Below are positions 5,860 through 38,759 of a stretch of 64,000 bases of DNA, in pieces. Source of the DNA: Cytophagaceae bacterium (GTDB lineage Bacteria > Bacteroidota > Bacteroidia > Cytophagales > Cytophagaceae); the NCBI GenBank assembly GCA_025455005.1, contig JALONH010000006.1:62001-126000 (forward strand), given 5' to 3'. Numbering within the stretch: the first letter of the stretch is position 1; every line of letters starts with the position of its first letter. A program made the translations under genes and the position numbers. The notes beneath the pieces are model-generated. The model searched no databases. It saw only the letters and a program-made list of their open reading frames with translations, and was not told the DNA's origin.

Positions 5860-8166
5860 TTAATTCGAATCTTGTTCATAATATCCATATCCGTATCCAT
5901 ACCCATACCCATACCCATACCCCTTCGTTAATGGTACTGCATTAGCAATAACGGATAAATTTTTGAAATCACCTCTATCGATAGTGCGCTGCATTTCTTT
6001 AGACACTGCATAAGATGAATAATTAATTCGAGCTACATAAAGGGGCAAATCGGTTTTACGCATAATCAAAATACCATCTGTAACTAAACCTACCGGAGGC
6101 GTATCTATTATGATAACATCATAAAGTTCATGTAGTTCTTTTAATATCCTATCAAAATCCGGTAATAAAACCAGTTCAGAAGGGTTAGGTGGTATTGTGC
6201 CAGCACTTATGAAATCCAATGTTGCAATACTTGTTTTTTGTATACACTCTTGCAACTTATGCTTACCGATTAGCAACGTACTCATACCCTTATCATTGTT
6301 CGCATTAAATGCTAAATGCACCTTAGGTTTTCGCATATCTAAATCAATCACCACTACTCTCTTATTTGATAAAGCTATAACACCAGCTAAATTTACAGCT
6401 ACAAACGTTTTACCTTCTCCACTAAGAGTAGAAGTGACAGAAATAATCTTCTTTTCTTTTCCTGGAATTAAAAACTCAATATTAGTTCGAATAGAACGTA
6501 AAGCTTCACTAATAGCTGACTTAGGATTTTTGTCTACAAGCAATTGTGAAAATTCCATTTTTTCTTTTTGATACTCAGGTATCGTTCCTATGATAGGAGA
6601 TGGACTTAAGTTTTCTAATTCTTTAATCGATGTTATGGTATCTAAAAAGATATAACGTAAAATAACTAAAAGCACACTTAATAAAAATCCTACCCCAAAA
6701 GCTCCTAAATAAAACAAATTCTTTTTTGGGAAAATTTGTCTTGTATCCAGGGTGGGCGACTGTATAATGATGTGATTGGATGTAACAGCAGATTTTAGAA
6801 TACTTTGTTCTACATACTTTTCCATTAACAATAAATAAAATTTATCGTACAAATTGTAATGTCGCTTAAGTCTACTCATTTCTGTTTCTTTAGAAGGCAA
6901 TGACAGTAGTTCATTTTCAATTGAATATAAATTCGAATTTATGTCGTGTAATGTTTTATAGGCGTTTTGTTTTTCAATTTGTACAAGTTCGGAAACTTCT
7001 TTTTGTGTGTTTTCTATCAATACTTTTTTAGACTTTACCGCATGGGTTGATTCGCTTTGCGACAATAATAGCCGATTATATTCTTGTTGAAGATTATTCA
7101 ACAGCGTTATCTCTTCATTTAGCTGTTCATTTAATAAACTAGGTAAAGCAGGAATTAAATCATCAAAACTATCTTTAGACAAAATTCTTTTTTCTAGTTG
7201 TTCAATTAAATCGATTTGTTGCTTGGTGTTAAATTTTTCTTTTTGAAGTTCATCTATCTTGGTTGTAAATCTGCCAAAATCGGATTTAACATCCATTGAT
7301 TTAGAACGTTTCATAAAGTCCTCAAAATCATTCTCGGCCATCATTAAATCTTTTTCTGCCTTTTCAATACTGCTACTTAAGAAATCTAGGGCTTGATCAT
7401 GTGTTTTGTTTTTATTATAAACCGTTTCTATAATGTATAAAGAATCTAATGTTCGAATAATATCAAATGCTTTATGTGGTGAATAATCTTTAAAGGATAT
7501 TGATACAGTATTAGAATTAATATTAAGAATTTCTACCAGTAGATTTTTATAAATATAATTTTCTGCATCCACATCATTAGATAGTAGAATATACATTTTA
7601 AAATCTTCCGGATAATCGACAAAGTATTCTGTCTTTTTTAATATGAAAGTTGTATTTGTATGGGAACAAAGAGTGTTGTATTTTCCAATATGTTTTTCTC
7701 GGGGCTCTTTGGTTAAAAACTCATATTCAAAAGTAGAATCGCTCAATAATGTTATATCTAAAGTGTTTGTTATACTATTATTCTGAGATATTGAATCAAT
7801 GTAAACTGGAGATTTTTTATACAGTTCAGAATTTAAAATTTTCCCATATCCATAATAACTTATTTTAAGATTAAGAACGGAAATTAATTTTTTTATGATA
7901 GGTGTAGATTTAATAATTTCCATTTCCCCCATGAGGTATCTACCTTCATCCATATCTTCTAAACCTGCTGTAGAACGAATGCCGAGTCCTTTCGATTGAT
8001 TATCGTCTTTTAGTTTAATAATCAAAGACGACTGATATTCCGGTTTGGTATATCTTAAAACGATAAATACTACAAAAAAAGAAGCAACTAAGAGTATTAT
8101 AAAGTAAAACCAACTTAACTTTAATACTTTTATAAATTTAAACCAATCAAAGTTTTGTTGATACAT
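5860..8166 (-). CDS. wzc: Wzc-type polysaccharide co-polymerase with BY-kinase domain
   Basis: A 768-residue inner-membrane protein that controls capsule or exopolysaccharide chain length and export. There is an N-terminal transmembrane helix around residues 16-36, a large periplasmic Wzz-like region with long coiled coils (about 260-440), and a second transmembrane helix near 485. The cytoplasmic kinase has Walker A SGEGKT near 580, Walker A' VVVIDLDMRKPK and Walker B VIIIDTPP. The C-terminus is a run of seven GY dipeptides plus one Tyr, the autophosphorylation cluster. It is followed at once by the CpsB-type phosphatase and preceded 3 bp upstream by the Wza gene. Confidence 0.95.
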   Translation of the reverse strand: MYQQNFDWFKFIKVLKLSWFYFIILLVASFFVVFIVLRYTKPEYQSSLIIKLKDDNQSKGLGIRSTAGLEDMDEGRYLMGEMEIIKSTPIIKKLISVLNLKISYYGYGKILNSELYKKSPVYIDSISQNNSITNTLDITLLSDSTFEYEFLTKEPREKHIGKYNTLCSHTNTTFILKKTEYFVDYPEDFKMYILLSNDVDAENYIYKNLLVEILNINSNTVSISFKDYSPHKAFDIIRTLDSLYIIETVYNKNKTHDQALDFLSSSIEKAEKDLMMAENDFEDFMKRSKSMDVKSDFGRFTTKIDELQKEKFNTKQQIDLIEQLEKRILSKDSFDDLIPALPSLLNEQLNEEITLLNNLQQEYNRLLLSQSESTHAVKSKKVLIENTQKEVSELVQIEKQNAYKTLHDINSNLYSIENELLSLPSKETEMSRLKRHYNLYDKFYLLLMEKYVEQSILKSAVTSNHIIIQSPTLDTRQIFPKKNLFYLGAFGVGFLLSVLLVILRYIFLDTITSIKELENLSPSPIIGTIPEYQKEKMEFSQLLVDKNPKSAISEALRSIRTNIEFLIPGKEKKIISVTSTLSGEGKTFVAVNLAGVIALSNKRVVVIDLDMRKPKVHLAFNANNDKGMSTLLIGKHKLQECIQKTSIATLDFISAGTIPPNPSELVLLPDFDRILKELHELYDVIIIDTPPVGLVTDGILIMRKTDLPLYVARINYSSYAVSKEMQRTIDRGDFKNLSVIANAVPLTKGYGYGYGYGYGYGYYEQDSN
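5879..5923 (-). repeat. CCATAC-type hexanucleotide tandem repeat in wzc
   Basis: About seven imperfect 6-bp units (CCATAT, CCGTAT, CCATAC; the last ones identical) encode the Gly-Tyr tail of the kinase. Because the unit is 6 bp, changes in copy number would alter the number of phosphorylatable tyrosines without breaking the frame. Confidence 0.9.
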
Positions 8167-8169
8167 AAT

Positions 8170-8970
8170 TTATTGAATACTTGAAAACAATATAACTAAA
8201 GTAAGTATACTAGTGGTTGCTGAAATTAAAGGCATTATATCAACAATAGTTTCTCTAAATATCCGTCTGGATGGTTCAATATAGATGATGTCACCCGGTA
8301 CTACATCTAATTGCGCCCTTTTCATTCCCTCTATTGTATTTAAATTGATGACTTGAACATCCGGATTATTTAATTCACCTCTTATTACTTTAATATTGGT
8401 AACATTGGCATCTACTTTTACATCTCCATATAATGCCAATACTTCAATTAAATTAATGTTTTCATTAGTTAAAGGAATAATTTTGCCTCCAGATGACCCA
8501 AACACAATTACGCGTTTGGAAGTAAATTTAACTTTTACAAAAGCTCCGGTATAGAACTTTTCATATTTAACACTTAAAATACTATCGGCTTGCCCTACTG
8601 TATAGCCAACTAAATTTACTTTTCCTATTAATGGCAAATGCACTAAACTGTCCGAAGTGATTAAATATTCAATATCTTGCTTATCCTTTACAGTAGTGGA
8701 AGTTTGCCTATTAACGGGAGACAATTCTTGATTTGGATCAATCAAAAGTTCTCCATTGTTTGTATATACTCTAAAGGTAAATTTATCAAAAACATCTAAG
8801 GTATAATTACGATCGCTAACGCCTCTTTGGTTATTAATCGAATCGACAACATACGATTGATCTGTTTGGAACAACTTGTATTTATGATAAAATCTAGTAC
8901 AAGAGGAAACACCTAAAGCCAAAATTAAAACTATATAAAAAAGGAGCCTTCTTTTAAAATGGTAATGCAT
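8170..8970 (-). CDS. Wza-type polysaccharide export lipoprotein
   Basis: A 266-residue outer-membrane polysaccharide export protein. The N-terminus is a lipoprotein signal (hydrophobic core, then LGVSSC with Cys24). The family's polysaccharide-export domain covers about residues 55-145 (NYTLDVFDKFTFRVY), followed by SLBB-like segments (VKFTSKRVIVFG; VVPGDIIYIEP). A C-terminal hydrophobic helix, ending SILTLVILFSSIQ, fits the membrane-spanning helix of Wza. The first 17 bp overlap the end of rfbC, so the two are translated together. Confidence 0.9.
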   Translation of the reverse strand: MHYHFKRRLLFYIVLILALGVSSCTRFYHKYKLFQTDQSYVVDSINNQRGVSDRNYTLDVFDKFTFRVYTNNGELLIDPNQELSPVNRQTSTTVKDKQDIEYLITSDSLVHLPLIGKVNLVGYTVGQADSILSVKYEKFYTGAFVKVKFTSKRVIVFGSSGGKIIPLTNENINLIEVLALYGDVKVDANVTNIKVIRGELNNPDVQVINLNTIEGMKRAQLDVVPGDIIYIEPSRRIFRETIVDIMPLISATTSILTLVILFSSIQ

Positions 8971-9499
8971 CGATTTGACTGTTTAATGTCGGTAATAATT
9001 GATCCTTTTCTGAGACAATAGGTTCTTTAATACCCCAAGGAAGCCCTAAGGAAGGGTCAGACCAACGTATGCCGCCTTCAGAGGCTTTATGATATACATT
9101 CGTACATTTGTATTGCACTTCGCAGGGTTCTAATGTTACAAACCCATGGGCAAAGCCTTCAGGTACATATAAGAATTGCATACTTTTATCGTCTAACACA
9201 ACCGCTTCCCATTTCAAATACGTAGGGGATGACTTACGTAAATCAACTACTATATCTCGAATGCTTCCTTTGATACATCGAACCAACTTCCCTTGTGTAT
9301 ACGGTGGGCGTTGAAAATGTAAGCCCCTCAGAACATTTTGGTCTGACTTCGAATGATTGTCTTGGACAAACTCAACCGGCAAACCCGCTTTTGTGAATGT
9401 TTCTTTATTATAGGATTCCAAAAAAAAACCTCTACTATCTCCGAACACGTCGGGGGTAATTAATATTAAATCTTTTAAAGAAAGCGCTCTAAACTCCAT
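8954..9499 (-). CDS. rfbC: dTDP-4-dehydrorhamnose 3,5-epimerase
   Basis: A 181-residue RmlC-type cupin that epimerises dTDP-4-keto-6-deoxyglucose at C3 and C5 in dTDP-rhamnose synthesis. Family signatures are DVFGDSRGFFLESY near residue 18, QDNHSKSDQNVLRGLHFQ with the catalytic His near 65, and YVPEGFAHGF near 117. Length matches the family. The other rml genes (A, B, D) are not in this window, so either they are elsewhere or this acts on a related sugar. It lies between the glycosyltransferase (3 bp gap) and the Wza gene (17 bp overlap). Confidence 0.95.
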   Translation of the reverse strand: MEFRALSLKDLILITPDVFGDSRGFFLESYNKETFTKAGLPVEFVQDNHSKSDQNVLRGLHFQRPPYTQGKLVRCIKGSIRDIVVDLRKSSPTYLKWEAVVLDDKSMQFLYVPEGFAHGFVTLEPCEVQYKCTNVYHKASEGGIRWSDPSLGLPWGIKEPIVSEKDQLLPTLNSQIDALPF

Positions 9500-23262: not shown

Positions 23263-25686
23263 TTATGAAATTATCAAACGCTTTGACGTTTTTCCTCTAT
23301 CTGTTTCTATTTGTATAAGATATACACCGGGTGAAAATCTCTCGGTTAGTAGGGTGGTTGAATTAGTATAGGAAGTAGCCTCTAGTAATACTTTACCTTC
23401 AGATGATATAAGTTTAATTTTAGCATATGACATTTCCGGAACTTGTATTGTAACAAAATCAACAGAAGGATTGGGGTATACAGTTGCGTCTATTTCCGGA
23501 GTGACATGCTGGGTAGAGGTAGGCAAAGTAGGTAAACAATCACAATCATTTGTATAAACTTCAAATTCTAAGAGGCGGTAGTACAATGTATTTAATTGTG
23601 TTAAATTCAATCTAACATACCGTGCTTTTACATTTGCTAAATGGTCGTATAAATCAACAGCACCATTCGATCCGGTTATGGTAGTTAAAACTGTAAAATT
23701 TACATTATCTGTAGATGTTTCAATTGAGTAGTTTTTAGCATAAAACACCCAATCCCAATGAAGTTTAATGGCAGATATCACCTTAGGTTGTATTAAATCT
23801 ACAGTAATTGTTGCATTTTGACTACCTAATGGAGAGCCCCATGCGGAGTTTAAATTACCATCGATTACATTCTGTGCAGCGTTCCCCGCAGTTGCATCAG
23901 CAGTACCGGATGATGTGACAGCACCAAATTTTGATTCAGACAAACCTATTGTAGTAGGGTCAGCATTTACCCATACGGGAACATTTTCAGCACTTACATT
24001 CGAACCTATAGCCTCAAATTGTGCTTTGGTCATAAAATGTATTTTAGGGAGATAACATTTCATAAATCCATTGCGCCAATTTTGTCCAACGAGTGTTTTA
24101 TCATATAGTGTAGCAGAAAAATCAGAATGTGCAAAATCTAAATTATGTTCATGAGGTGCTAAGGGAAATCTCCAATCAGGAGCAACACATAACCAGCGAA
24201 TGAGAAGCCCTAGCTCGCTTTGAGTGCCCCAATCTACCCACGAAACACCATTTGTAATGGTAGCATTGGACGGTCGATCTGTTGGTCTTGAATAGGCTAT
24301 CACATAATTTCTATTATTATCGAGTGCTACATCATCATCCGATATAGCATGGACTGTGGTAGCCGGTAAGGGGGAGAACGGATCCTGATCAATACCACAA
24401 ATACTCCAATAGCGTAATTCAGCGGCAGTCATTGTAGCCTCTCCATTACGTGTAGAGGGAAATGTGGGAAGTTTTCCCGTAAGAACAGCTACCATTCCCG
24501 GTGGAACCGTTACCGTTCTTCCCATATAACTAACATAATTATTTGTAGTAGCATGAGGTTCAATGTTACCCGGAGCAGGTTGATTTTCTCCACGTCCAGT
24601 CCAACCAAGATCTATTGCACGAACTCGAGCAGCGCTATCGGTCCAATTATTTGTTATACATATCCCATTCAATATACTTCTAGAAATACTCCAAGACTTA
24701 AACCAACCAACAGAAGGACCAATATTCTGATTGGGTTGCGTTATCACTACTCGGTTTTTAATAGTAGCGTTGGCTCGTTTTGTCAAATTTGAAAAGTCAG
24801 AGCCAATAAAATATTTTTGTCCATTAGGTAATTCGAAATATACTTTAGGCATAGGCACTCCTCCTAATGCATTGACATTATTATCCGGTTCATAAATGCG
24901 AATCCATACATTGCCTAAGTCCCATGGACCTTGAAGCGAATCCGGCAATGCGTTTCCGGTAATGTATTGAAAACCTAATGGTCCCTGATATGTTAACAAC
25001 GCTCCCTTGATAGAATTATTCGTTCTATATGGATACGTATGGGCTGTCCCATTTAGTGTTGTAGGATTACCTGTAGTTAAATCTACTTCAACTTTGTATT
25101 TTCTATTAGTAGCATTTCTATTGGCACCTACACGAAAGGGATTTGTATGTCCGGGTAAAGGTTGAATATCAGCATCTACTAACGATACTTCTGCTGAGCC
25201 AAATTGACGTTGAGCATAGTACTCAGAACCGTTTAAAGGTGGAGTCACTTGAATGGAGAAAAAACGACAATGTGGGAATTCTCCTTCAATAATTAATTTA
25301 CTTCCAAAGGGTGCTAATGAGGTGCCCAGGAGCAAATAGGTTATCTTAGGGTCCGGAATTCCTGCATACAAGGAGTCTTTGTTTATGGGTTTTGCAAAAC
25401 GAGTAGCCCATGTTTCCTCCGGTGTTACATCATCCGGATGTTTTAAATAAAAGTTTTTAGAATCCGAAATACCATCCGGTATTAGTCGGGCAGGAATTTG
25501 TGCCGGGACTTTACCTTCTGTCCATAGTACGATATATTTTTCAAGTGAATCGGATAATTTTATTGCTTCGTTCACTACATCTTGTGGCGGGCGATGAGGA
25601 TATGGATTAGATGGAGGTAAACAGGCATTTAAAAGTAATAATGCTGACCATACACATATACGAACAATTAGTAGTGGGTGATACAT
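23263..25686 (-). CDS. Large exported protein: unknown domain + discoidin-like domain + T9SS sorting domain
   Basis: An 807-residue protein. Residues 1-22 form a signal peptide ending in a lipobox (LNAC). Residues 23-560 are a conserved domain of unknown function, shared with the gene at 35857-37587 (for example PYPHRPP, APFGSKLIIEGEFPHCRFF, GHTNPF, WTGRGENQPAP, VIAYSRPTDRPSNAT). Residues about 590-715 look like an F5/8-type C (discoidin/CBM32) domain. The last 75 residues are a type A T9SS sorting domain (VYPNPSVDFVTIQVP ... GVYLIQIETDRGKTSKRLII). This predicts a cell-surface or secreted product. The combination of lipobox and T9SS domain is unusual. Confidence 0.85.
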   Translation of the reverse strand: MYHPLLIVRICVWSALLLLNACLPPSNPYPHRPPQDVVNEAIKLSDSLEKYIVLWTEGKVPAQIPARLIPDGISDSKNFYLKHPDDVTPEETWATRFAKPINKDSLYAGIPDPKITYLLLGTSLAPFGSKLIIEGEFPHCRFFSIQVTPPLNGSEYYAQRQFGSAEVSLVDADIQPLPGHTNPFRVGANRNATNRKYKVEVDLTTGNPTTLNGTAHTYPYRTNNSIKGALLTYQGPLGFQYITGNALPDSLQGPWDLGNVWIRIYEPDNNVNALGGVPMPKVYFELPNGQKYFIGSDFSNLTKRANATIKNRVVITQPNQNIGPSVGWFKSWSISRSILNGICITNNWTDSAARVRAIDLGWTGRGENQPAPGNIEPHATTNNYVSYMGRTVTVPPGMVAVLTGKLPTFPSTRNGEATMTAAELRYWSICGIDQDPFSPLPATTVHAISDDDVALDNNRNYVIAYSRPTDRPSNATITNGVSWVDWGTQSELGLLIRWLCVAPDWRFPLAPHEHNLDFAHSDFSATLYDKTLVGQNWRNGFMKCYLPKIHFMTKAQFEAIGSNVSAENVPVWVNADPTTIGLSESKFGAVTSSGTADATAGNAAQNVIDGNLNSAWGSPLGSQNATITVDLIQPKVISAIKLHWDWVFYAKNYSIETSTDNVNFTVLTTITGSNGAVDLYDHLANVKARYVRLNLTQLNTLYYRLLEFEVYTNDCDCLPTLPTSTQHVTPEIDATVYPNPSVDFVTIQVPEMSYAKIKLISSEGKVLLEATSYTNSTTLLTERFSPGVYLIQIETDRGKTSKRLIIS

Positions 25687-26742: not shown

Positions 26743-27531
26743 TTACCTCTTCCACAATACAGGTGCATCGTTCGCTCTCCATGTGACTTCTGCTCCACCA
26801 TCAATAACAATATATTGACCGATCATAAATCGAGCATTATCTACCAATAAAAATTTAACTAAATCCGCAATATCTTCCGGTAGCGCATGAGCCCCTAAAG
26901 GCTTGGGTAAGCTATTGATTCCTGCCGCTTTTCTTGGGTCTTGCATATCTTTCTCCAGCAGGGCTGTCAGCACAACACCCGGTGCTATAGCATTCATTGA
27001 TATGCCACTTCCTGCCCAATTGGGCATTCCGGCTTGCTGTCGCATCCACTTCGTAATGGCTGTTTTACTTACTTGATACGTATATTCCGGACACTCTCTG
27101 ATATGATTTAATGCCCCGTTTACATCATTGTTTAAGAGTGCGTCAACAGGAGCTGTAGGAATATTAGGTGTTATCACAACTGAATTCGAAGCATTGATCA
27201 CTACTCGAGCGTGTTTTGATTTTTTTAGTAAAGGCTGTAACCCTTCTAATAATTGAACTATACCAAAATAATTCAGCCCGAAGACCAGTCGAGCATTTTC
27301 ACTATCAACACCAGCATTCGCAAAGACCCCATCAATAGAGCCTTCCGATATTATAGTAATCTGCTCGATAGCGAAACGAACCCCTTCTTCCGTCGATAAA
27401 TCGGCTTCGATTTCGGCATCCGGAGTATTGCTCACCCCTATCACTCGAATACCTATTGACTCCAGCAATTTTCGAGTACTTAGTCCCATACCCGTTTGGG
27501 ACCCTGTGATTACAATAGTTCTATTATTCAT
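26743..27531 (-). CDS. Short-chain dehydrogenase/reductase
   Basis: A 262-residue classical SDR. The cofactor loop TGSQTGMG is at residues 10-17, NAG near 91, and the active site Ser (INASNSVV near 135) with YQVSK near 172. The C-terminal IGQYIVIDGGAEVTW is typical. It resembles 3-alpha-hydroxysteroid dehydrogenase-type SDRs, but the substrate is uncertain. It is the last gene of the leftward asparagine-catabolism run, 13 bp after the DASS carrier; its link to that pathway is unclear. Confidence 0.88.
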   Translation of the reverse strand: MNNRTIVITGSQTGMGLSTRKLLESIGIRVIGVSNTPDAEIEADLSTEEGVRFAIEQITIISEGSIDGVFANAGVDSENARLVFGLNYFGIVQLLEGLQPLLKKSKHARVVINASNSVVITPNIPTAPVDALLNNDVNGALNHIRECPEYTYQVSKTAITKWMRQQAGMPNWAGSGISMNAIAPGVVLTALLEKDMQDPRKAAGINSLPKPLGAHALPEDIADLVKFLLVDNARFMIGQYIVIDGGAEVTWRANDAPVLWKR

Positions 27532-27544
27532 ATCTATTTATTTT

Positions 27545-28915
27545 TTATTTTAATACCCATACAACTGCAAAGGCTATAAGTGGCCCTAGAGTTGCCATTA
27601 CGAATCCAGTATAAAGAAAATCTTTTTGTTTTAATACGCCTGTACTATAGGCGATAGCATTGGAAGGAGAGGACACCGGTAACAATAAAGAAGTAGAAGA
27701 AGCTATCGCTATGATGGCAGCTACTTCTTTTTCCATCCCAGGCAGTACAGTCATCACTAATGGTATCATTAGACTACTCGCGGCTGTATTACTCATTATA
27801 TTGGAGACTAACATGGATACATAACAAAAAATCAATAGCATACTTATTGGGCTAATGGGTAGTAATAATAGTTTATCTGAATAATAGCGTAATAAATTCG
27901 TCTCTTCCAATGCCAATCCTAAAGACAATCCACCCGCTACCAAAAATAAAGTATCCCAAGGTAATTGCTTAATATCTTTCGCAACTAAAACACCACTCAG
28001 TGGCAACAGTAGAATAGGAAACGCACTGATAGCGGCCACTGATACGTGATGAATAGAAGTCGTCAACCAAAACAACACAGTTAATACGACAATCACGATA
28101 ACCATCGTTTTGTGAGAACGGGGTACTTCTTCCGCTTGACTCCCTCCCATTCCATTTAAATCGATAGTCGGAACCCCTCGTAAAAAAAAGTAATACAAAG
28201 TACCGGCATTGAGTACTAAAAACAATAGCATAATAGGAACACCAAAAACCATCCAATCAACAAAACTCATAGTTATATTTTGTTTGGTTAATAAACTTGA
28301 AGCTATAGAGTTTGGAGGCGAACCTATAATCGTAGCCATACCTCCTATAGTAGAAGCAACCGGTATACCCACTACTAACGCTTTTGCCAATCCATTTTCT
28401 TTACCCAAGTGAAGGAGTAAAGGTCCTACGGCGGCAATCAACATGGCGGTGGTGGCGGTGTTGGACATCAACATGGATAATACCATCGTTAAGATTAAAA
28501 TAGAAAAAAGAATTTTTACCGGACTATTCCCCGATATTCTTAATGCCCATTGAAAAATATCTTTATCTAGTGTTGTTTTAGTCATGGCGGAAGCAATAAA
28601 AAAACCTCCCATAATGAGCCAAATACCGGTACTTGAAAAGGTGTTCACGTAGGGTAATACATCCCTTGGTTCCGGATTTAAATAATCATTACCTAATGTA
28701 AATACTAGATAGGCCATAATCAGAATGCTTACAACATAGGCCGGAATAGCTTCCGAGAGCCATAGAGCAATGGAGAAGAATAAGAGAAATAGTACATAGG
28801 TTTGCGACCGATTGAATTCCGGTTCTTGAACAAACCATAAAAGGACAAAAGCAATAAGACCGGAAAGAATAATCTTACCGGTCTTAGAAGTGATACTATA
28901 TTTCATTTGATTCAT
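27545..28915 (-). CDS. DASS-family (SLC13) anion:sodium symporter, probably C4-dicarboxylate
   Basis: A 456-residue carrier with about eleven helices. It has the two SNT substrate/sodium motifs that define the DASS family, MLMSNTATTAM near residue 150 and IMSNTAASSLM near 370, as well as GSPPNSIA near 200 and SSPSNAIAYSTG near 420. Family members move succinate, fumarate, malate, citrate or sulfate with sodium. Placed directly after the asparaginase, aspartase and porin genes, the most likely substrate here is fumarate or aspartate; this is inference from context. Confidence 0.9.
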   Translation of the reverse strand: MNQMKYSITSKTGKIILSGLIAFVLLWFVQEPEFNRSQTYVLFLLFFSIALWLSEAIPAYVVSILIMAYLVFTLGNDYLNPEPRDVLPYVNTFSSTGIWLIMGGFFIASAMTKTTLDKDIFQWALRISGNSPVKILFSILILTMVLSMLMSNTATTAMLIAAVGPLLLHLGKENGLAKALVVGIPVASTIGGMATIIGSPPNSIASSLLTKQNITMSFVDWMVFGVPIMLLFLVLNAGTLYYFFLRGVPTIDLNGMGGSQAEEVPRSHKTMVIVIVVLTVLFWLTTSIHHVSVAAISAFPILLLPLSGVLVAKDIKQLPWDTLFLVAGGLSLGLALEETNLLRYYSDKLLLLPISPISMLLIFCYVSMLVSNIMSNTAASSLMIPLVMTVLPGMEKEVAAIIAIASSTSLLLPVSSPSNAIAYSTGVLKQKDFLYTGFVMATLGPLIAFAVVWVLK

Positions 28916-28921
28916 TCTTAA

Positions 28922-30109
28922 TTAAAATATACCTAAAGGTGTTACAAATCCTACCGTTACCCTTCCGGTCGAATAATCATCTGCAAAACCTCGACCCTCT
29001 GCATAATTGGAATAATTGTATACACGACCAACATAATTGACATAAAAGCGCAAATTCAAATCTTCAAAGGGATAATATTCGACGGTAGGAATAAATCCCC
29101 AAGCTGTTCGGATTAGGTCAGTATCCTTAGCAGGGTCCGGATCATTTTTCCATTTTGCTATATCCATCATGGCAAACAGAGCAAAATTCCATTTCTTATT
29201 TAGTCGATAATGAATATGAGTCCAATGTCCAATATACTCTGTATTCTTCAACGCAAACGCATATAAACTATCTGGAATCGTTTCGCTGGCTACACCTGTT
29301 CTATCCAGTTGTTCATTACTAATCTTTAAGTCATACGCCACAACCAATTTGCCTAGATTTAATTGATTACCGAAAGCAAAATAATTCATATATAAACCTT
29401 GCGCTTCAGTAAATAAAGAATAGGACCAAATAGTTTGAAATTTACCGCCAAATAAGTTACCTCTCCAATTGGAAACGAACGCTAAAGGAGCTTTTGCTTC
29501 AATTGCATTCGGTTGAGCTCCGTATAATTCTTGGAAGGATTTAGTTCTGGAATTTAAGGCTTGAAAGGAGAAACTATGGTTTTTATGGGCAGCATATCCT
29601 ACCCCTACACCGGTTAAGAAATTATCTGCATACTCAATTATATCTGAATACTCATAAATGTCAATCGGATTATAATCGAACTCAAAACCACCCCAATCGG
29701 CACACATTTTTCCGGCGCTAAAATTAAGCCGTTTGGAAGCATCGATTCGTATGTACGCTAAGTCCGTAGATCTGCTGATGTTATCTATAGATTCAGATGT
29801 TTGAGCACGTGTATACCGATCTCTAAAACGGAAATAGACCCGACGGTGAACCATCCCTCTGAATTCTAACCTAAACTGTTCATTTCTAAAACGCGATTGA
29901 ATGTAGGTGCCATCCATGAATTCATTTCGAAAAGCAAAATTCATATTGGCTATCATACTCATGTTCTTGAGTAACCCTTGTTTTTCCTCCGGAATCAACG
30001 TCTTGTAATAAGTAGTATCACCTGTTTGCCGCTCCTGGCGCTGTGCAACAGCTATACTAGTCCCTATCATTAAACCTATACATACCAATATGTAACGTCT
30101 CATACCCAT
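28922..30109 (-). CDS. Outer-membrane porin (phosphate/anion porin-like)
   Basis: A 395-residue exported beta-barrel. The signal peptide ends near IAVAQ (residue 23), and strands such as FRLEFRGMVHRRVYFRFRDRY near 80 and LNLRFYVNYVGRVY near 345 follow the pattern of OprP/OprO-like porins of Bacteroidota. The C-terminus ends in Phe (VTPLGIF), as expected for barrel insertion. Position 7 bp before the DASS carrier gene and 20 bp after the asparaginase gene suggests it admits asparagine or dicarboxylates. Confidence 0.8.
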   Translation of the reverse strand: MGMRRYILVCIGLMIGTSIAVAQRQERQTGDTTYYKTLIPEEKQGLLKNMSMIANMNFAFRNEFMDGTYIQSRFRNEQFRLEFRGMVHRRVYFRFRDRYTRAQTSESIDNISRSTDLAYIRIDASKRLNFSAGKMCADWGGFEFDYNPIDIYEYSDIIEYADNFLTGVGVGYAAHKNHSFSFQALNSRTKSFQELYGAQPNAIEAKAPLAFVSNWRGNLFGGKFQTIWSYSLFTEAQGLYMNYFAFGNQLNLGKLVVAYDLKISNEQLDRTGVASETIPDSLYAFALKNTEYIGHWTHIHYRLNKKWNFALFAMMDIAKWKNDPDPAKDTDLIRTAWGFIPTVEYYPFEDLNLRFYVNYVGRVYNYSNYAEGRGFADDYSTGRVTVGFVTPLGIF

Positions 30110-30128
30110 AAACGATATCTTAAAAAAA

Positions 30129-31199
30129 TTAATATTGAATGAAAAGCTGTTGTAATTCTTCTCTGCTTCTATCTTTCAAGAGCGCTAACATTAATAAGAT
30201 ACGGGCTTTTTGAGGATTTAAATCATCGGAGGAAATACATCCATACGTTTTATCATCAATTTCCCCTTCTATCAATACCGCACCAATAGGAATACGAGTG
30301 GCTCGTACCACGTGTACCCCTTTTGCTGTAGCTCTTTTTACTGCTTTCAACATATCTTCTGTCATATTACCATCCCCAACGCCTGCTATAACAATTCCTT
30401 TAGAGCCGGATTTAACAAGGTAATCAATCATATCACCGGAGGCGTCTGCATAACAATATACGATATCAACTTTCGGTAAATCTTTTATGCCATTCGTAGA
30501 AAATTCACTGGAAGTGGTATGCAAGCCGGATGGGCCATGAAAGAATTTTACTTGACCAAAAATTACTGTTCCTAATAGACCTTCTTGAGGTGATTGGAAT
30601 GTGTGGACCGGAGTTGATATCATTTTCTTCACATCATGAGCAGAATGTATTTCATCGTTCAACACTACTAACACACCTTTTCCTTTCGACTCTGCATGTG
30701 CTGCTACTGCTACTGCATTGTATAAATTCAATGGACCATCTGCACTCAAGGCAGTAGAAGGGCGCATAGAGCCTGTCAATACTACGGGCTTATTACTTTT
30801 AATTACTAAGTTTAAGAAATACGCCGTTTCTTCCTGTGTATCTGTACCATGTGTAATAACAATACCATCTACATCGGATGATGCGAGTAATTCATTGATA
30901 CGTGTGGCTAAATCCAACCAAATCTTTATGCTCATGTCTTGAGAGCCTACATTCGATACTTGTTCACCTTTTAGATTAGCCAGTTTTCGAATATTAGGTA
31001 CCGAGCTAATCATGGTGTCTATAGATATTTTACCGGAAGTATACGCCGATCCGGTAGCGCTGGCGCCGGCACCGGCTATTGTTCCCCCGGTAGCAAGTAC
31101 GCGTACATTTGGTAGTTTTTGTTGTGCTACGGCAGCTATTTGTAAACAGACTGCCAATAATGTTATCGTTAAATAGTGAAGAGGTGTTTTTGTTTCCAT
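30129..31199 (-). CDS. ansB: Periplasmic (type II) L-asparaginase
   Basis: A 356-residue enzyme hydrolysing asparagine to aspartate and ammonia. The signal peptide (residues 1-25, ending AAVAQ) is followed by VLATGGTIAG with the nucleophile Thr and GIVITHGTDTQEETAYFL near residue 113 with the catalytic Thr-Asp pair. Length and motifs fit the high-affinity periplasmic class. It lies 36 bp downstream of aspA on the same strand, so its product aspartate is the direct substrate of the next enzyme. Confidence 0.95.
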   Translation of the reverse strand: METKTPLHYLTITLLAVCLQIAAVAQQKLPNVRVLATGGTIAGAGASATGSAYTSGKISIDTMISSVPNIRKLANLKGEQVSNVGSQDMSIKIWLDLATRINELLASSDVDGIVITHGTDTQEETAYFLNLVIKSNKPVVLTGSMRPSTALSADGPLNLYNAVAVAAHAESKGKGVLVVLNDEIHSAHDVKKMISTPVHTFQSPQEGLLGTVIFGQVKFFHGPSGLHTTSSEFSTNGIKDLPKVDIVYCYADASGDMIDYLVKSGSKGIVIAGVGDGNMTEDMLKAVKRATAKGVHVVRATRIPIGAVLIEGEIDDKTYGCISSDDLNPQKARILLMLALLKDRSREELQQLFIQY

Positions 31200-31235
31200 A
31201 GGTCCATGCCTTTAAGTGTAAAAGATAGTTAAGTA

Positions 31236-32726
31236 TTATTGTCCTGTAACCGATTTAGGGTCTAGTAATTGTTTGATTTGTTCCTCGGTTAATAATTTTT
31301 TCTCCCGAATGAGTTCCAGTATCCCTTTATTAGTTTCTAATGCTTCTTTGGCCAACTCTGTTGTTTTTTCATATCCTAAAATTGGATTCAATGCGGTTAC
31401 AATACCTACGCTTCTATCGATATAACGCTGAACCGTTGCCGTATTAACAGTAATACCGTCGATACAGTTTTTTGCAAACAACGCAACCGTATTCGTTAGC
31501 AATAGTTGCGATTCAAATAATGAGACAGCAACGACCGGTTCGTAAGCATTTAATTGTAGCAACCCGTCTTGAGAAGCTAGTGTTACCGTAACATCGTTTC
31601 CGATTACTGTAAAACAAATTTGATTCATCAATTCCGGCATTACTGGATTTACTTTGCCGGGCATAATAGAAGATCCGGGTTGTAACGCAGGTAAATTAAT
31701 TTCGAACAATCCGGTTCTAGGACCGGATGCAAGAATAATTAAATCGGAACTAATTTTAGATAAAGTAACGGCTACATTTTTTAAGGCAGCAGAATATAAA
31801 ACAAAGCCTTGCATATTGGTCGTGGCGGCTACAAGGTCTTTGCTTAATACGATAGGTTTATTTACAATTTTAGCTAAATGCGCAGCACACTTTGGAGCAT
31901 AACCCGGAGCAGCCGTAATACCGGTACCTATGGCGGTAGCCCCCATGTTGATTTCATATAAGTAAACCTCCGATTGTTTCAATGCTGCAATCGCTGCATC
32001 CAGTTGATTACCGAAAGCATGAAACTCTTGACCTACAGTCATTGGAACAGCATCTTGTCCTTCCGTACGACCCATCTTTAAGATGTCTTTAAATGCTTCT
32101 CCTTTAGCATGAAAGGACTGTGATAATTGTTCTAAAGCAGCCACTACTTTAGCATTGTGAAGGATTAAAGCGACTTTGATTGTCGTAGGGTAAGCATCAT
32201 TTGTAGACTGACCACTGTTTAAATCATCGTGTGGTTCTATAATGTGGTACTCCCCTTTTTTATGACCACTTAATTCCAATGCAATATTGGCTAAGGTTTC
32301 GTTAGCGTTCATATTGGCAGATGTGCCGGCTCCCCCTTGGTACATATCTACTAAAAACTGATCGTGGTATTTACCTTCCATTACTGCTAGGCAAGCCTTT
32401 TCTATAGCCGCTAATTTTTCGATACTTAAACGACCTACTTCCACGTTAGCCCGAGCAGCCGCTAGTTTCACCATGGCAAAAGCTCGTACATAATCAGGAA
32501 AGTCAAACGTATGTTGGTTGCTTATAGTAAAATTTTCCAATGCTCGAGCTGTCTGAACTCCGTAGTAGGCAGAAGTCGGTAATTCTTTTGTTCCTAATAA
32601 ATCTTTCTCTTGACGTGTAGTAGGCACGGATGGAGGCGTTGCTTTTTTCTTTTGTGCAAAGGAAGGGGAAGCAGAAAGAATACACCCTACCATACAGCCA
32701 TAAATAAAGATTCGTTTCATAGTCAT
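31236..32726 (-). CDS. aspA: Aspartate ammonia-lyase with an N-terminal export signal
   Basis: A 496-residue aspartase that deaminates aspartate to fumarate. The family signature GSSIMPGKVNPVMPE is near residue 345, with NLNSGQST-like sequence near 170 and TNMQG near 305. The body matches usual aspartases of about 465-470 residues, but here it is preceded by about 50 extra residues: a basic start, the core IFIYGCMVGCILSA and an SFA-Q cleavage site, then a low-complexity KKKATPPSVPTT linker. This is a clear Sec signal, so the enzyme is predicted to be periplasmic. It heads the operon with ansB, porin, DASS carrier and SDR. Confidence 0.92.
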   Translation of the reverse strand: MTMKRIFIYGCMVGCILSASPSFAQKKKATPPSVPTTRQEKDLLGTKELPTSAYYGVQTARALENFTISNQHTFDFPDYVRAFAMVKLAAARANVEVGRLSIEKLAAIEKACLAVMEGKYHDQFLVDMYQGGAGTSANMNANETLANIALELSGHKKGEYHIIEPHDDLNSGQSTNDAYPTTIKVALILHNAKVVAALEQLSQSFHAKGEAFKDILKMGRTEGQDAVPMTVGQEFHAFGNQLDAAIAALKQSEVYLYEINMGATAIGTGITAAPGYAPKCAAHLAKIVNKPIVLSKDLVAATTNMQGFVLYSAALKNVAVTLSKISSDLIILASGPRTGLFEINLPALQPGSSIMPGKVNPVMPELMNQICFTVIGNDVTVTLASQDGLLQLNAYEPVVAVSLFESQLLLTNTVALFAKNCIDGITVNTATVQRYIDRSVGIVTALNPILGYEKTTELAKEALETNKGILELIREKKLLTEEQIKQLLDPKSVTGQ

Positions 32727-32764: not shown

Positions 32765-33826
32765 TTAATAGTTAAGTCTTAAATTGTCTACCTGTAATAC
32801 ACTTCCTACTCCCCCTTTAAAGAAGAAGCCTTGGGCGGAAGAGGTAGCCACAAATGTAATATGTGTTGGAGTGTCGGTTGCGGAACCATATAAATTGTTA
32901 GATGGAAACATATTAGAATAATAATTATTCGGGAGTGCACCATAGATTAAATCAACCGTAGTGCTTGTCCATGTAGTTACAGTAGCTCCCGTTCTAAAAT
33001 TAGCTGTTGCAATTCGTTTGATCGAGTTAGGATTCGACCTGTCTTCCAATAATAAATAAATATCACAAGAATCAAGCCCGCCGGCGATAGTGTTCCCTTG
33101 ACCATCTTTATATGGAGTACCTGGTGCATACTTATAATCAATGGTAAAGGATATCGGTTTTTTGGTGTATTCAATTCCAAAAACAGGAGAAGCTGTAGGA
33201 TTGGCAATATTTAACACAAAATCCCCGGTGAATATAGAACCGGCTGCCATACGAGTTCCGGCTATGGCAGCAAGAGACCCTAAGTCTTTTGTTTCTAAGC
33301 GAACCGCATAGTTAGCATTACCTAAGTTTTCCGGACTGGTATTCGCCAGAGAAAAAGTCAACACCCCTTCATTACCGGACGCCCAAATGGTGGAAGTCGC
33401 ACTAGAACCGAGTTCTTGACAAGTCCCGGAAGAATAGTTGGCAGTATACCAAGTGTTAAAATCTGAATGAATAAGTTGGGGTGTACTACTTTCCACTTCT
33501 ACTAATATAGTGTACGTTTTTTTACTTCCATCCTCAGCTAGTACATCATAGGTGAGGGTATCGCTAAAGTCTCTTGCTAAGGTACTATCCGGTGATAATC
33601 GAGCGAAATTGGATACTTGAATTCGTTCCGGTCGCAGATTAAAATTGACAGTATTGCCCGGCATGGTAATTCGAATGAGTGCACTGTCCTCCAATATCAA
33701 GCTGGAACCAATTTGACCGGGTAACTGAAAAGACAGCAACTGTTTGAAAGAGGACAAGCCGAACCTGTCTTCTTTTATACAAGAGAATACACTACAACAT
33801 AAGAGTAAGGACCAGAATGTTTTCAT
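32765..33826 (-). CDS. PCMD-type lipoprotein
   Basis: A 353-residue lipoprotein. I start at the ATG at 33826, because the 13 residues from an upstream ATG would precede the signal peptide; from here MKTFWSLLLCCSVFSC gives a proper lipobox with Cys16. Residues about 85-110 look like a short beta domain, and the C-terminal 230 residues (HSDFNTWY ... FTGDFVLNIANP ... VGSVLQVDNLRLNY) resemble the putative carbohydrate metabolism domain of Bacteroidota surface lipoproteins. It follows the broken barrel gene by 1 bp, suggesting they act together. Confidence 0.75.
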   Translation of the reverse strand: MKTFWSLLLCCSVFSCIKEDRFGLSSFKQLLSFQLPGQIGSSLILEDSALIRITMPGNTVNFNLRPERIQVSNFARLSPDSTLARDFSDTLTYDVLAEDGSKKTYTILVEVESSTPQLIHSDFNTWYTANYSSGTCQELGSSATSTIWASGNEGVLTFSLANTSPENLGNANYAVRLETKDLGSLAAIAGTRMAAGSIFTGDFVLNIANPTASPVFGIEYTKKPISFTIDYKYAPGTPYKDGQGNTIAGGLDSCDIYLLLEDRSNPNSIKRIATANFRTGATVTTWTSTTVDLIYGALPNNYYSNMFPSNNLYGSATDTPTHITFVATSSAQGFFFKGGVGSVLQVDNLRLNY

Positions 33827-33827
33827 T

Positions 33828-34576
33828 TTAAAAATACGCACTAACGCCAATATTGATGCGTGCAAGATTTAGTTTAAGTTGAACGTCACCATCTCTGGAT
33901 TTTGCTGAATCATCCCCATTAACTGATTTGGTGGTAGATACATGGCTTATATTAAATACATTGATGGACAAGTCCAGTGCTACATTATCGATAATGAAAA
34001 ACGTCATGCCGGCATCTGTCGCCAATCGAAATTCTTGTATTGTTTTCAGTTCTCTATTTAAATCGACAGCTGTGGTAGTCGCCTTGAGTACTTGTTTGTT
34101 CTCATACCCTAAAAAGGGTTTGAAATAAATATAATATCGGTTATTATGCGATAAAGGAATATACGTTTTAATAAAGGAAGTAAAGGAAAATCCTTGACCA
34201 AATTGCTGCACAAGATAACGTTCATTCTGTAAGCTGTAGGATTCTTTCAATTGTGAAAATTCGTAGGCTATCCCTAATCCTAAGGCAACATTTTCTCTAT
34301 AAAAAAACCGGATTCCACTTTTAGGTTGGCTGCATTTCGTCTCCCGTTGACATCGGTCCGCAACAAATCAAAATTCTCTATATCTTTAGAACGTTTGAGG
34401 TCAATACTGAAAGATATAAATTTACGCCCTTTGTAGAGAGGCGTAAATTTATAATCAATTTCTGTAATTTGTTTGTTGAGTTGAGAACTGTCTTTGCTCC
34501 CTTGTGCATACACGTATAAAACGGAATGAAATATCAACCCGGCAAAAAAATAGCGTAAGGCTCTGGAGAGAAACAT
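33828..34576 (-). pseudogene. Outer-membrane beta-barrel gene with a frame change at an A7/T7 run
   Basis: Two consecutive reading frames make one barrel protein. The first (34576-34280) has a signal peptide ending VYAQ and runs to ESGFFIEKMLP-stop. The second continues as GFFYRENVALGLGIAYEFSQ into the frame containing LKESYSLQNERYL. They join perfectly if one extra T is read in the run of seven T on the coding strand (34307-34301). This is a 1-base deletion, an assembly error, slipped-strand variation, or -1 slippage on T TTT TTT. The joined product is about 250 residues, ends in Phe (GVSAYF), and is flanked by a secreted protein and a PCMD-like lipoprotein. Confidence 0.85.
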
Positions 34577-35836: not shown

Positions 35837-35863
35837 AAAATAGTCGCATTAAGCGACTATTTT
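35837..35863. terminator. Bidirectional terminator
   Basis: AAAATAGTCGC, loop ATTAA, GCGACTATTTT: an 11-bp perfect stem with T/A tracts on both sides, between the decayed barrel gene and the convergent lipoprotein gene whose stop codon lies inside the stem. Confidence 0.85.
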
Positions 35864-37587
35864 ATTTTATAAATAGGTAGTGCACTCGGATCCTGCTTTA
35901 TATATAATTTTTCAAAATCTTCTTTTCTCATATAATGTCCTTTTGGAAGATAAGGACCCAGAAAACCCTCATGTGAATTCTTGCCTATCAGCTGAATGTT
36001 ATATTGTTTACCCGCCCAATCGGATTGCCCCCAAGGTAAATTGGTCTCATTAGGTGCTATAGGCATTACCCATTCCGGACCAACAGAAATCCAACGAAGG
36101 GTAAACGATTGAATCGATGTTTCATTCCAATTCACCCACGTAACCCCATTATCTTTTGTTGCATTAGTGGGTTTGTCTCCCGGTCGGGAGTAAACGATTA
36201 CATAATCTCTAGTTGAAGTCAGTTCTACCTCATCGTCCATTACACTTGTCACCTCAACGCCGGCTAATTTGGTAAACGGGAAGCTGGCATCATAGCTGGT
36301 AATAGACCAATAGCGGCATTGAGCGGTATCCAATGTTGCAGCGCCCATCCGTGTATGGGGAAATGTAGGCATACGACCGGTTAATACATATACATATCCT
36401 TTTTTAATGGATGTTCCTGTTGTCAAGTAGCCGGTATAATTACAGCCGGTAGCATGCGGTTCGTAAGACGCCGGTGCCGGTTGGTCTTGTCCTCTTCCGG
36501 TTACTCCTAAGTCCAACTGTCGGACATATTCTTTATGCTTTTCCCGAACGCGGTCTTTGTATAATGCAACCGTTAGTCCTTGCGCAATAATGCGGAAAAT
36601 ACCAAATTGTTTGTACCAGCCTACATGAGGATTATGAAAGCTTAAGGGATGACTATTTCCTATTGCTCTAACTTTTAACCTTTGTTCGGAATGTTTTTCA
36701 AAGGCAGAAAAATCGCACTGTATATAAAACTTTTCTCCGGTAGGCAATTCATAATGTACTTTCGGAAAACCAACACCGGCAGAAGGGAACTTGTCATGAT
36801 CGATACCATAATAACGAATCCATATGTCACCAAAATCAAAGGGTCCTCTACCATGTGCTCCTATTCCCTTCTTTTCTCCCCACGGACCTTGTGGTTGTAT
36901 GCCCGATCCATAGCGAATCGTACCGGGAGCTCGATAAAAAGGGGGGCGGTGTGATGGGTCAAGTGCGGAAGGATTACCCATTGCCATTCGATATTCCACT
37001 TTATAGGATCGCTTTTTCCCAAGCCTATATCCATTCGGAAGGAATGGATTGGTATGACCGGAATCCGGAATAATATCCGTGTCAACAATACCCACTTCCC
37101 CTTTTCCCGCCCATTTGTCGTATCGATATTCCAAAGGGTCAAAAGGAGGTGACATTTGTATATTAAAGAATCGACAATACGGAAACGCTCCTTCTATCAC
37201 AACTTTTGATCCAAAGGGAGCATATACAACCGGCATCAACAAGTAGGTACAATGTGGATCCGGAAAACTTCCCATCAACCGATCAAAGTCGATGGCATGT
37301 GCATTTCGAGAGACCCACTGTGTTTCCCAACGAATAGAATCGTATTTAACCAATCGGAAAGAATGAAACAGTGCCGGATTATATCCTTTGGGTAATAAAG
37401 AGTCCGGTAATTCAGCGCGTGCTTTGCCGGCGTACCACAATCGTATATACTGCTCCAGTCGATTCGAAAGTTGTAAAGCTTCGCGAGTTAATTCTTCCGC
37501 CGGTCTATAAGGATATTGTGGAGGCTTAGGAAGACAAGCCATTACCAATAGAAAAAAGAAAAATCGATAAGAGACGCTTTTTTTCAT
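35857..37587 (-). CDS. Lipoprotein of unknown family, paralogue of the 23-25 kb protein
   Basis: A 576-residue lipoprotein. I start at ATG 37587, giving MKKSVSYRFFFFLLVMAC with the lipobox VMAC; an open frame extends upstream but overlaps the divergent kinase gene and lacks sense. The whole mature protein is related to residues 23-560 of the protein at 23263-25686: shared APFGSK...IEGAFPYCRFFNIQ, GHTNPF, VTGRGQDQPAP, LTGRMPTFPHTR, VIVYSRPGDKPTNAT and WVNWNETS. It lacks the discoidin and T9SS domains. It is divergent from a LytS-type kinase, which may control it. Function is unknown. Confidence 0.8.
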   Translation of the reverse strand: MKKSVSYRFFFFLLVMACLPKPPQYPYRPAEELTREALQLSNRLEQYIRLWYAGKARAELPDSLLPKGYNPALFHSFRLVKYDSIRWETQWVSRNAHAIDFDRLMGSFPDPHCTYLLMPVVYAPFGSKVVIEGAFPYCRFFNIQMSPPFDPLEYRYDKWAGKGEVGIVDTDIIPDSGHTNPFLPNGYRLGKKRSYKVEYRMAMGNPSALDPSHRPPFYRAPGTIRYGSGIQPQGPWGEKKGIGAHGRGPFDFGDIWIRYYGIDHDKFPSAGVGFPKVHYELPTGEKFYIQCDFSAFEKHSEQRLKVRAIGNSHPLSFHNPHVGWYKQFGIFRIIAQGLTVALYKDRVREKHKEYVRQLDLGVTGRGQDQPAPASYEPHATGCNYTGYLTTGTSIKKGYVYVLTGRMPTFPHTRMGAATLDTAQCRYWSITSYDASFPFTKLAGVEVTSVMDDEVELTSTRDYVIVYSRPGDKPTNATKDNGVTWVNWNETSIQSFTLRWISVGPEWVMPIAPNETNLPWGQSDWAGKQYNIQLIGKNSHEGFLGPYLPKGHYMRKEDFEKLYIKQDPSALPIYKIK

Positions 37588-37733
37588 ATCATTTTTTATT
37601 ACTATAGAAATATAGGAATTTGAAAGGGATAAGGGAATCGTATTGTCCATTTTCTGAACCAACCGCTCTATTTTCTGAATCAACCTTGAGTCTTCTGTTA
37701 TGGTTACTAATAAAATAATATGATATTTGGTAA

Positions 37734-38759
37734 ATGAATCGATGGCTCTTTCAACGAATCTTATTACATACAATACTTTGGCTTTTATTCATAAGTGTCA
37801 GTATGTATTATTTTTCATTTTGGTTGCCCGAAGCCGGAATTGATGCGGGGTTGTTAAAAATATTACTATACGTACTTTCTTGGACCTTTTATTTGATGAT
37901 ACTCCCCTATTTGGATTATTATGTATTAGTTCCTACGTTATTATTTAAAAAGAAATATATAGCCTTTATTAGTCTCAATTTTTCACTTATTGTATTGTTT
38001 AGTTATGTTAAAATGTTTGTAGATGCCTTGTTTCTGGAAACAGAACCTAAATGGCTCTTTTCATTTTTACATTTTGTGTCAGCTATGCCCTATCTTTTTA
38101 TATTTAGTTTAGCCACCTGCCTGTTAAGACTTGCGGAAGAATGGCTAAACCGATTGAGTATACAAGAAGCCTTAATAAAAGACAAAATAGAAGCTGAATT
38201 AAAATTCTTAAAAGCTCAAATAAATCCTCATTTTTTATTTAATACGTTAAATAATATTTATTCCCTAACGTATACCCAATCACCTAAGGCAGCCCCGGCT
38301 CTATTGAAGTTATCAGAAATGTTACGCTACATGTTGTATGATTCGAATCAACAGGAGGTGACGATACAACAAGAAGTAACTTTTTTGAATAACTATATAG
38401 AATTTATGACCTTAAAAGAACGCTGGAAAAACAAAGTGCATATATCCATATCCATCGAACATGAGAGTATTCGCCTACCTCCTTTATTGTTCATCAATTT
38501 TATCGAAAACGCCTTTAAACACGGTAATTTAGAGGCTGAACATTCTTTTATTGGTATATATTTAACGGCACAATTAGATCAAATTTCTTTCAAGGTAGAA
38601 AATACGTTTAATGAATCTTGGAGTAAAGATCATACTTCTGGTATAGGAATTAAAAATGTTTTTGCACGTTTAGAGCGATTATATCCCGGGAAATATAGTT
38701 TGATAGAACACATCGAAAATAATGTATATACCATACATCTAAACTTATTACTATCATGA
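37734..38759 (+). CDS. LytS/YehU-type sensor histidine kinase
   Basis: A 341-residue kinase with four hydrophobic helices in residues 1-130, then the His_kinase domain: phosphoacceptor in LKAQINPHFLFNTLNNIYSL near 165 and the ATP-binding N-box LLFINFIENAFKHGN near 250, ending in GIGIKNVFARLERLYPG. It has no separate sensor domain, so the membrane part probably senses. It overlaps the response regulator gene by 4 bp and is divergent from the unknown-family lipoprotein gene. Confidence 0.93.
   Translation: MNRWLFQRILLHTILWLLFISVSMYYFSFWLPEAGIDAGLLKILLYVLSWTFYLMILPYLDYYVLVPTLLFKKKYIAFISLNFSLIVLFSYVKMFVDALFLETEPKWLFSFLHFVSAMPYLFIFSLATCLLRLAEEWLNRLSIQEALIKDKIEAELKFLKAQINPHFLFNTLNNIYSLTYTQSPKAAPALLKLSEMLRYMLYDSNQQEVTIQQEVTFLNNYIEFMTLKERWKNKVHISISIEHESIRLPPLLFINFIENAFKHGNLEAEHSFIGIYLTAQLDQISFKVENTFNESWSKDHTSGIGIKNVFARLERLYPGKYSLIEHIENNVYTIHLNLLLS

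Follow-up and report, generated by a model that had tools for sequence, protein, structure and literature searches.

A clade of aspartase homologues with predicted export signals and a putative periplasmic route from asparagine to fumarate

The asparaginase-aspartase gene run of a Cytophagaceae bacterium

Aspartase is generally regarded as an enzyme of the cytoplasm. Here we describe a gene run from a Cytophagaceae bacterium (phylum Bacteroidota) in which an aspartase homologue with a predicted signal peptide is encoded beside a type II asparaginase, an outer-membrane porin, and a sodium-coupled anion symporter, and we provide evidence that this homologue belongs to a distinct clade found in several phyla. 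The run lies in a stretch of 64,000 nucleotides (assembly GCA_025455005.1, contig JALONH010000006.1, positions 62,001 to 126,000 of the forward strand), which we call the window and in whose coordinates all positions are given. It consists of five co-directional open reading frames (ORFs) in the order aspA-ansB-porin-DASS-SDR, with gaps of 36, 19, 6, and 13 bp in the ORF list. An earlier sequence-only reading of the window had placed these five genes in one operon, and their shared orientation, small gaps, and family assignments agree with that placement.

31236..32726, minus strand: aspA, predicted exported aspartate ammonia-lyase homologue, 496 aa (ORF list, family models, homology)
32655..32726, minus strand: signal-peptide coding stretch of aspA, 24 codons, MTMKRIFIYGCMVGCILSASPSFA (computed from the aspA start)
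30129..31199, minus strand: ansB, signal-bearing type II L-asparaginase, 356 aa (profile matches, inspection)
28922..30109, minus strand: outer-membrane porin of the Porin_O_P family with a signal-like N-terminus, 395 aa (profile match, inspection)
27545..28915, minus strand: DASS-family sodium-coupled anion symporter, 456 aa (profile and solved-structure matches)
26743..27531, minus strand: SDR oxidoreductase, last in the gene run (profile match)
32765..33865, minus strand: PCMD/DUF5018 protein with a lipoprotein-like N-terminus (Pfam), 38 bp upstream of aspA

The ansB product scores 438.9 bits on TIGR00520, the type II asparaginase model (cut-off, 314.3), and carries a signal peptide by inspection. 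The DASS protein scores 231.9 bits on TIGR00785 (cut-off, 198.6), and its best solved relatives are NadC-family transporters, including VcINDY, the substrate range of which is C4-dicarboxylates. The PCMD protein gene, being so close to aspA on the same strand, may be co-transcribed with it, and its product probably bears no relation to the pathway that we propose below.

Window AspA matches Lyase_1 (PF00206; 287 bits) and FumaraseC_C (PF10415; 69 bits), and it passes the aspartate ammonia-lyase subfamily model NF008909 with 649 bits against a cut-off of 510. Solved aspartases (1jsw, 1j3u/3r6v, and 6wng) align to its residues 37/38 to 488-493, and the SS-loop GSSIMPGKVNP (Ser352-Ser353, with the catalytic serine) and the GRT, GTS, and STND motifs are kept both in this protein and in almost all of its relatives. 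We rejected the idea that it is a class II fumarase misnamed as an aspartase, given that it scores 431 bits as such (cut-off, 665) against 649 and 604 on the aspartase models and stands apart from FumC in our tree. Among the three Lyase_1 genes of the genome to which the window belongs, aspA is the only one of the fumarase/aspartase type; the other two, one with a partial match at 28% identity to window AspA and one without a listed match, we read as purB- and argH-like. The genome also has a class I fumarase. No class II fumarase was found in it, and a fumC-like match was found in 17 of the 18 other members of the family searched, at 38-40% identity to window AspA at best and in some cases only partial.

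A signal-bearing clade of aspartase homologues

The N-terminus of window AspA reads MTMKRIFIYGCMVGCILSASPSFA-QKKK, and by inspection its n-region is basic, its core is hydrophobic, and its end resembles A-x-A (S-F-A). By eye we assign residues 1-24 to the signal peptide, about 25-37 to a linker, and 38-494 to the enzyme; our home-made score places the cut after A19, and inspection places it slightly later, after A24. These features, which include small residues at positions -3 and -1, fit export by the Sec pathway with cleavage by signal peptidase I, and the localisation is predicted on that ground. The sequence-only reading had likewise seen a Sec signal, although it put the extension at about 50 residues; residue 38 aligns with residue 6 of Escherichia coli AspA, which makes the extension ~32 residues long. 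Three other accounts of this N-terminus were dismissed. An outer-membrane lipoprotein does not fit because a lipobox is absent by inspection and Cys11 and Cys15 fall within the hydrophobic stretch; cargo of the type IX secretion system does not fit because window AspA has neither Por_Secre_tail nor another sorting domain in the Pfam result; and a chance hydrophobic N-terminus does not fit because the signal is common to a whole clade.

A pattern-based genome scan of 84,980 species confirmed 336 relatives, of which the best 80 were used for loci; this biases the set toward close relatives, and further members of the clade may exist. Judged from their N-termini, nearly all of these 80 carry a signal peptide. 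The 152 sequences that we compared were reduced to 95 by dereplication, and L057, L058, and L081 were dropped before the tree was built. The 51 dereplicated members form one clade with 100/100 support (bootstrap/Shimodaira-Hasegawa-like approximate likelihood ratio test [SH-aLRT]) in a tree of 84 aspartases from which the column of the Glu residue discussed below had been masked, and the same clade has an SH-aLRT of 100 in the 95-row tree that includes fumarases; its stem is 0.27. Another 36 members outside the tree were assigned to the clade by similarity, the nearest kept row lying inside the clade for each one compared; L081, which has an in-frame stop near its end, was left out of that comparison.

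Grouped in this way, and with signal calls made by inspection together with the home-made score, the cut-off of which (2.3) was picked after the distribution had been seen, a signal peptide is present in 85 of the 87 clade members versus 1/48 other aspartases (the N-terminally cut L057 being counted among the 48) and 0/17 fumarases. Grouping by identity alone, with a cut at 54%, gives 84/93 versus 2/45 on the same score, and the high-identity misses include long fused-ORF aspartases that are 54-56% identical and lie outside the clade. The lone outside call, L170, probably a false positive, is placed just before the enzyme core of such a long fused ORF. Aspartases of the window's order that are 46-52% identical to window AspA have their N-terminus at or near the enzyme core. 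A trait kept across the clade in this manner is more than chance.

Fused aspartases of this kind recur in the window's phylum, where open frames of 617-655 aa encode aspartases with an N-terminal extension (L184, L149-L153, L155, L157-L159, L161, L163, L166, and L170). In L184, which comes from the same genome as L148, the extension resembles a cyclic-nucleotide-binding (CRP-like) domain, joined here to an AspA of the cytosolic type.

Members of the signal-bearing clade come from Bacteroidota, Acidobacteriota, Pseudomonadota, Myxococcota, Chlorobiota, Chlamydiota, and Candidatus Latescibacterota, and a Calditrichaceae metagenome-assembled genome (L105) is among the best 80 relatives. Many members are metagenome bins, however, and single odd phyla in the clade may therefore be binning errors. 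The clade is rare in the window's own phylum: a match of at least 67% was found in 7 of 392 sampled genomes, and the next matches in the phylum (51-56%; L148-L170) fall outside the clade where they were placed. Clade matches were found in 2/194 genomes of the window's order and in 1/19 of its family.

A second trait, independent of the signal call, points the same way. The enzyme part holds a mean of 3.4 cysteines in the clade versus 6.5 in other aspartases (51 versus 34 dereplicated rows; p of about 4e-11, ignoring relatedness), a depletion that fits life outside the reducing cytoplasm.

It might be argued that the signal is unused, or that an internal start is used, and that a cytosolic AspA acts after aspartate has been taken up. 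The same gene content is drawn with a cytosolic AspA in Actinobacillus succinogenes (PMC10634366), and the window gene does have a GTG at residue 34. Yet the signal is kept in 85 of the 87 clade members, the clade is depleted in cysteine, and L077 has both a cytosolic-type and an exported-type AspA. Moreover, 64 of the 80 signal-bearing members tested have no ATG, GTG, or TTG from the predicted cleavage site to the core and so could not make a cytosolic product by starting downstream. The sequence-only reading had named a downstream start among the things that would overturn its case; that concern falls away for these 64 members and stands for the window gene, which is among the other 16. We regard a cytosolic enzyme as very unlikely. 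In L077 (F. aquariorum), the cytosolic-type aspartase gene stands directly upstream of the exported-type one, in tandem, at 6504-9377.

The amine pocket and the gene neighbourhood

At the alignment position of His188 of Bacillus AspB and Gln191 of E. coli AspA, window AspA has Glu222. According to PMC11744663, AspB His188 and Asn142 belong to the carboxylate pocket and contact the substrate amine as well. Glu occupies this position in 85/87 clade members and Gln in the remaining two (L122 and L125), whereas the other AspA have Gln (47/48) or His (1/48). The clade also differs in a second signature, NA[YF]EP in 86/87 members versus NV[MF]EP in the 48 other aspartases. The deepest branch of the clade is L122, with no signal and Gln kept, and the next fork includes L125, which combines a signal with Gln; this order suggests that export arose before, or together with, the change to Glu. 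The fewest changes on the tree are two for the signal and three for the amine-pocket residue. A clade-wide trait accompanied by a nearly fixed change in the amine pocket goes beyond the single-gene view of the sequence-only reading.

Because Glu222 replaces the Gln or His seen in all other AspA compared, we call it an aspartase homologue, one that probably has aspartase function. A different reading holds that the exported enzyme has ceased to be a simple aspartase, Glu having shifted its preference to another amino-dicarboxylate or to an N-substituted aspartate, and that the linkage to ansB reflects a wider scavenging of amino acids. Such a shift would account for a Glu found in 85/87 clade members and in none of the 48 other AspA, at a residue that contacts the substrate amine in AspB (PMC11744663), as well as for the missed NCBIfam aspA equivalog cut-off and the long clade stem (0.27). 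It sits poorly with the tight linkage to an asparaginase, the product of which is aspartate, with the retention of the other pocket motifs compared in almost all members, and with L125, a signal-bearing enzyme with Gln that still adjoins ansB. We think it unlikely.

A same-strand ansB lies within 1.5 kb of aspA at 66 of the 80 loci versus 1/20 control AspA loci, or 2/20 if fragmentary ansB-like matches in two frames, under the score cut, at control L178 (L055) are counted; for another control, L173, the sequence on one side is just 292 bases long. With full 1.5-kb flanks the figures are 56/62 versus 1/19, and 28/34 after dereplication. The AnsB proteins of the clade loci are themselves signal bearing in 65 of 68 cases, with L075 (2.29), L121, and L095 falling below the cut. 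The sequence-only reading had proposed, as a check, a survey of Bacteroidota genomes for signal-bearing aspartases and for their linkage to ansB; among the relatives from several phyla compared here, the counts are 85/87 versus 1/48 and 66/80 versus 1/20. Predicted export of the aspartase and its linkage to ansB are well supported.

Transport genes recur as well. On the same strand and within 6 kb, the 80 loci include DcuA/B (30), DcaP (30), Porin_O_P (34), DASS (5), GltS (4), and glutaminase (14), each of them absent from the 20 controls, although the query proteins were taken from the exported loci themselves, which somewhat favours those loci. DcaP is dicarboxylate specific. The carrier and porin neighbours are seen in loci from several phyla, which extends well past the window what had first been noticed there, namely genes for outer-membrane entry and for inner-membrane C4-dicarboxylate transport beside aspA. 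The SDR oxidoreductase fared differently: it had been listed in the operon, but with the score cut applied, none of the 80 related loci has a gene like it on the same strand within 6 kb, and we do not count it as a member of the pathway. At the sequence level, both enzymes, their signal peptides, and the linkage of their genes are shown, as is their conservation in a clade that spans several phyla.

Glutaminase A genes stand at 14/80 loci (L063, L064, L072, L078, L082, L085, L103, L109, and others), signal bearing in 14/14 tested, and several of these loci also have an Amidohydro_2 protein.

These neighbours bear on the purpose of an exported aspartase. The same exported reaction could serve to supply external ammonia, whether for a local rise in pH or for the release of nitrogen, rather than the uptake of carbon as fumarate. 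Both enzymes would free ammonia in the periplasm, and the glutaminases at 14/80 loci, signal bearing where tested, would fit it too. C4-dicarboxylate carriers and DcaP or Porin_O_P porins, however, recur in the clusters and are found at 0/20 controls, which indicates that carbon is recovered. A role confined to ammonia we therefore hold to be improbable.

A putative periplasmic pathway and its known counterparts

We consider it fairly likely, on the evidence of sequence and gene order, that the operon encodes a periplasmic pathway from asparagine to fumarate. Asparagine or aspartate would enter through the porin; the signal-bearing AnsB would convert asparagine to aspartate and ammonia in the periplasm; the signal-bearing AspA would remove the second nitrogen as ammonia to yield fumarate; and the neighbouring C4-dicarboxylate carrier, DASS here and DcuA/B in many relatives, would import the fumarate, which could then pass into the tricarboxylic acid (TCA) cycle by way of the cytoplasmic class I fumarase. 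With the second enzyme also outside, what is imported would be fumarate and not aspartate. Uptake of fumarate and loss of ammonia through porins would pull the equilibrium forward, and the benefit would be that nitrogen is left outside as ammonia while carbon arrives ready for the TCA cycle or respiration. We infer that the enzymes reside in the periplasm, that they are active and run in this direction, that fumarate is what the carrier moves, and that the cell benefits in this way.

The direction deserves particular comment. The aspartase reaction is reversible (PMC11744663), and A. succinogenes DcuA prefers aspartate for uptake (PMC10634366), so that the exported enzyme might be imagined to run in reverse and to make aspartate for import from external ammonia and fumarate. 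The same-strand asparaginase neighbour, however, supplies both aspartate and ammonia, and the net direction should therefore favour fumarate; we find the reverse reaction extremely improbable.

Several observations count against a periplasmic asparagine-to-fumarate pathway. Two clade members (L093 and L122) lack the signal, and the single GTG codon (V34) that follows the signal in window aspA, ahead of the core, is a possible internal start. An ansB on the same strand and within 1.5 kb is missing from 14 of the 80 loci, of which several lie on short contigs; among the 45 loci with 6-kb flanks on both sides, four still lack it (L111, L122, L123, and L132), L111 having an ansB on the opposite strand. 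Window AspA scores 604 on the NCBIfam aspA equivalog TIGR00839, below the cut-off of 681, and its Glu is unlike the residue of the three characterised aspartases aligned (Gln, Gln, and His), so that its activity on L-aspartate could be altered. The substrate imported by the Dcu neighbours may be aspartate instead of fumarate (PMC10634366); these carriers accept both, so that their presence alone does not settle which of the two crosses. DcuA/B were not found in the window's own genome, and the glutaminase present there has no signal peptide by inspection, which leaves any wider module incomplete in that genome.

Two unrelated observations from this genome are recorded here. A ~190-bp unit in two tandem copies, with segments 87-97% alike, lies between two genes beside the glutaminase gene (L191:964-1339). 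In the window itself, positions 23263-25686 and 35857-37773, both on the minus strand, encode paralogous proteins with 41% identity over 566 columns; Pfam matches in the former include an F5/8 type C domain and a type IX secretion tail, and the latter has none.

Taken across the clade, the data invite a broader scenario, for and against which we find the balance even: a periplasmic module, shared by several phyla and made up of an asparaginase and an exported aspartase, with an exported glutaminase, porins, and C4-dicarboxylate carriers at some loci, would split nitrogen from carbon before the inner membrane, the amine pocket having been re-tuned from Gln or His to Glu as an adaptation to that setting. 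We found no account of such a module in the open-access literature searched. If the exported clade is what it appears to be, many environmental bacteria import the carbon of asparagine and aspartate as fumarate and leave the nitrogen outside as ammonia. This would bear on the mineralisation of amino-acid nitrogen in soils and waters, on the interpretation of aspA annotations in metabolic modelling, and on the changes that a much-studied biocatalyst can accept in its amine pocket.

An exported bacterial aspartase was not found in the open-access literature searched, and none is mentioned in the available text of PMC4178425, PMC8708908, PMC11204068, or PMC10634366. C. jejuni (Campylobacter jejuni) AspA is named among cytoplasmic enzymes (PMC8708908), and in Arcobacter, where aspA is beside asparaginase 2 by locus number, the portions consulted make no mention of an exported aspartase (PMC5495459). 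A "secreted aspartase" of a Candida strain, scored in a plate-type test for secreted enzymes (PMC12016522), we set aside as unrelated to bacterial AspA.

What we describe is a known pathway whose second step has apparently been shifted to the other side of the membrane, in an enzyme clade of its own. The closest counterpart is the ansB-aspA-dcuA cluster of A. succinogenes (Asuc_0140-0142), in which AnsB is periplasmic, DcuA imports aspartate, and AspA is cytoplasmic (PMC10634366). Asparaginase II, aspartase, and a C4-dicarboxylate carrier are encoded together in both, and the carbon of asparagine ends as fumarate in A. succinogenes, as it would here; there, however, aspartate crosses the inner membrane, whereas the signal peptide of window AspA means that fumarate would cross. 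The nearest counterpart for the relocation is AnsB-s of C. jejuni, an asparaginase that owes its place in the periplasm to an added Sec signal (PMC4178425). There too an added signal relocates an enzyme that strips nitrogen from an amino acid, and the product rather than asparagine is imported, but C. jejuni moves the first step only, and only in some strains, and takes in aspartate. The likeness to DcaP porins and to DASS and Dcu carriers lies in the genes, these families occurring in the gene clusters of the clade. As for the enzyme, homology to E. coli AspA, Bacillus AspB, and the Elizabethkingia aspartase 6wng extends over nearly the whole enzyme part with the SS-loop kept; unlike them, the clade has a signal peptide, Glu in the amine pocket, NA[YF]EP, fewer cysteines, and a separate place in the tree.

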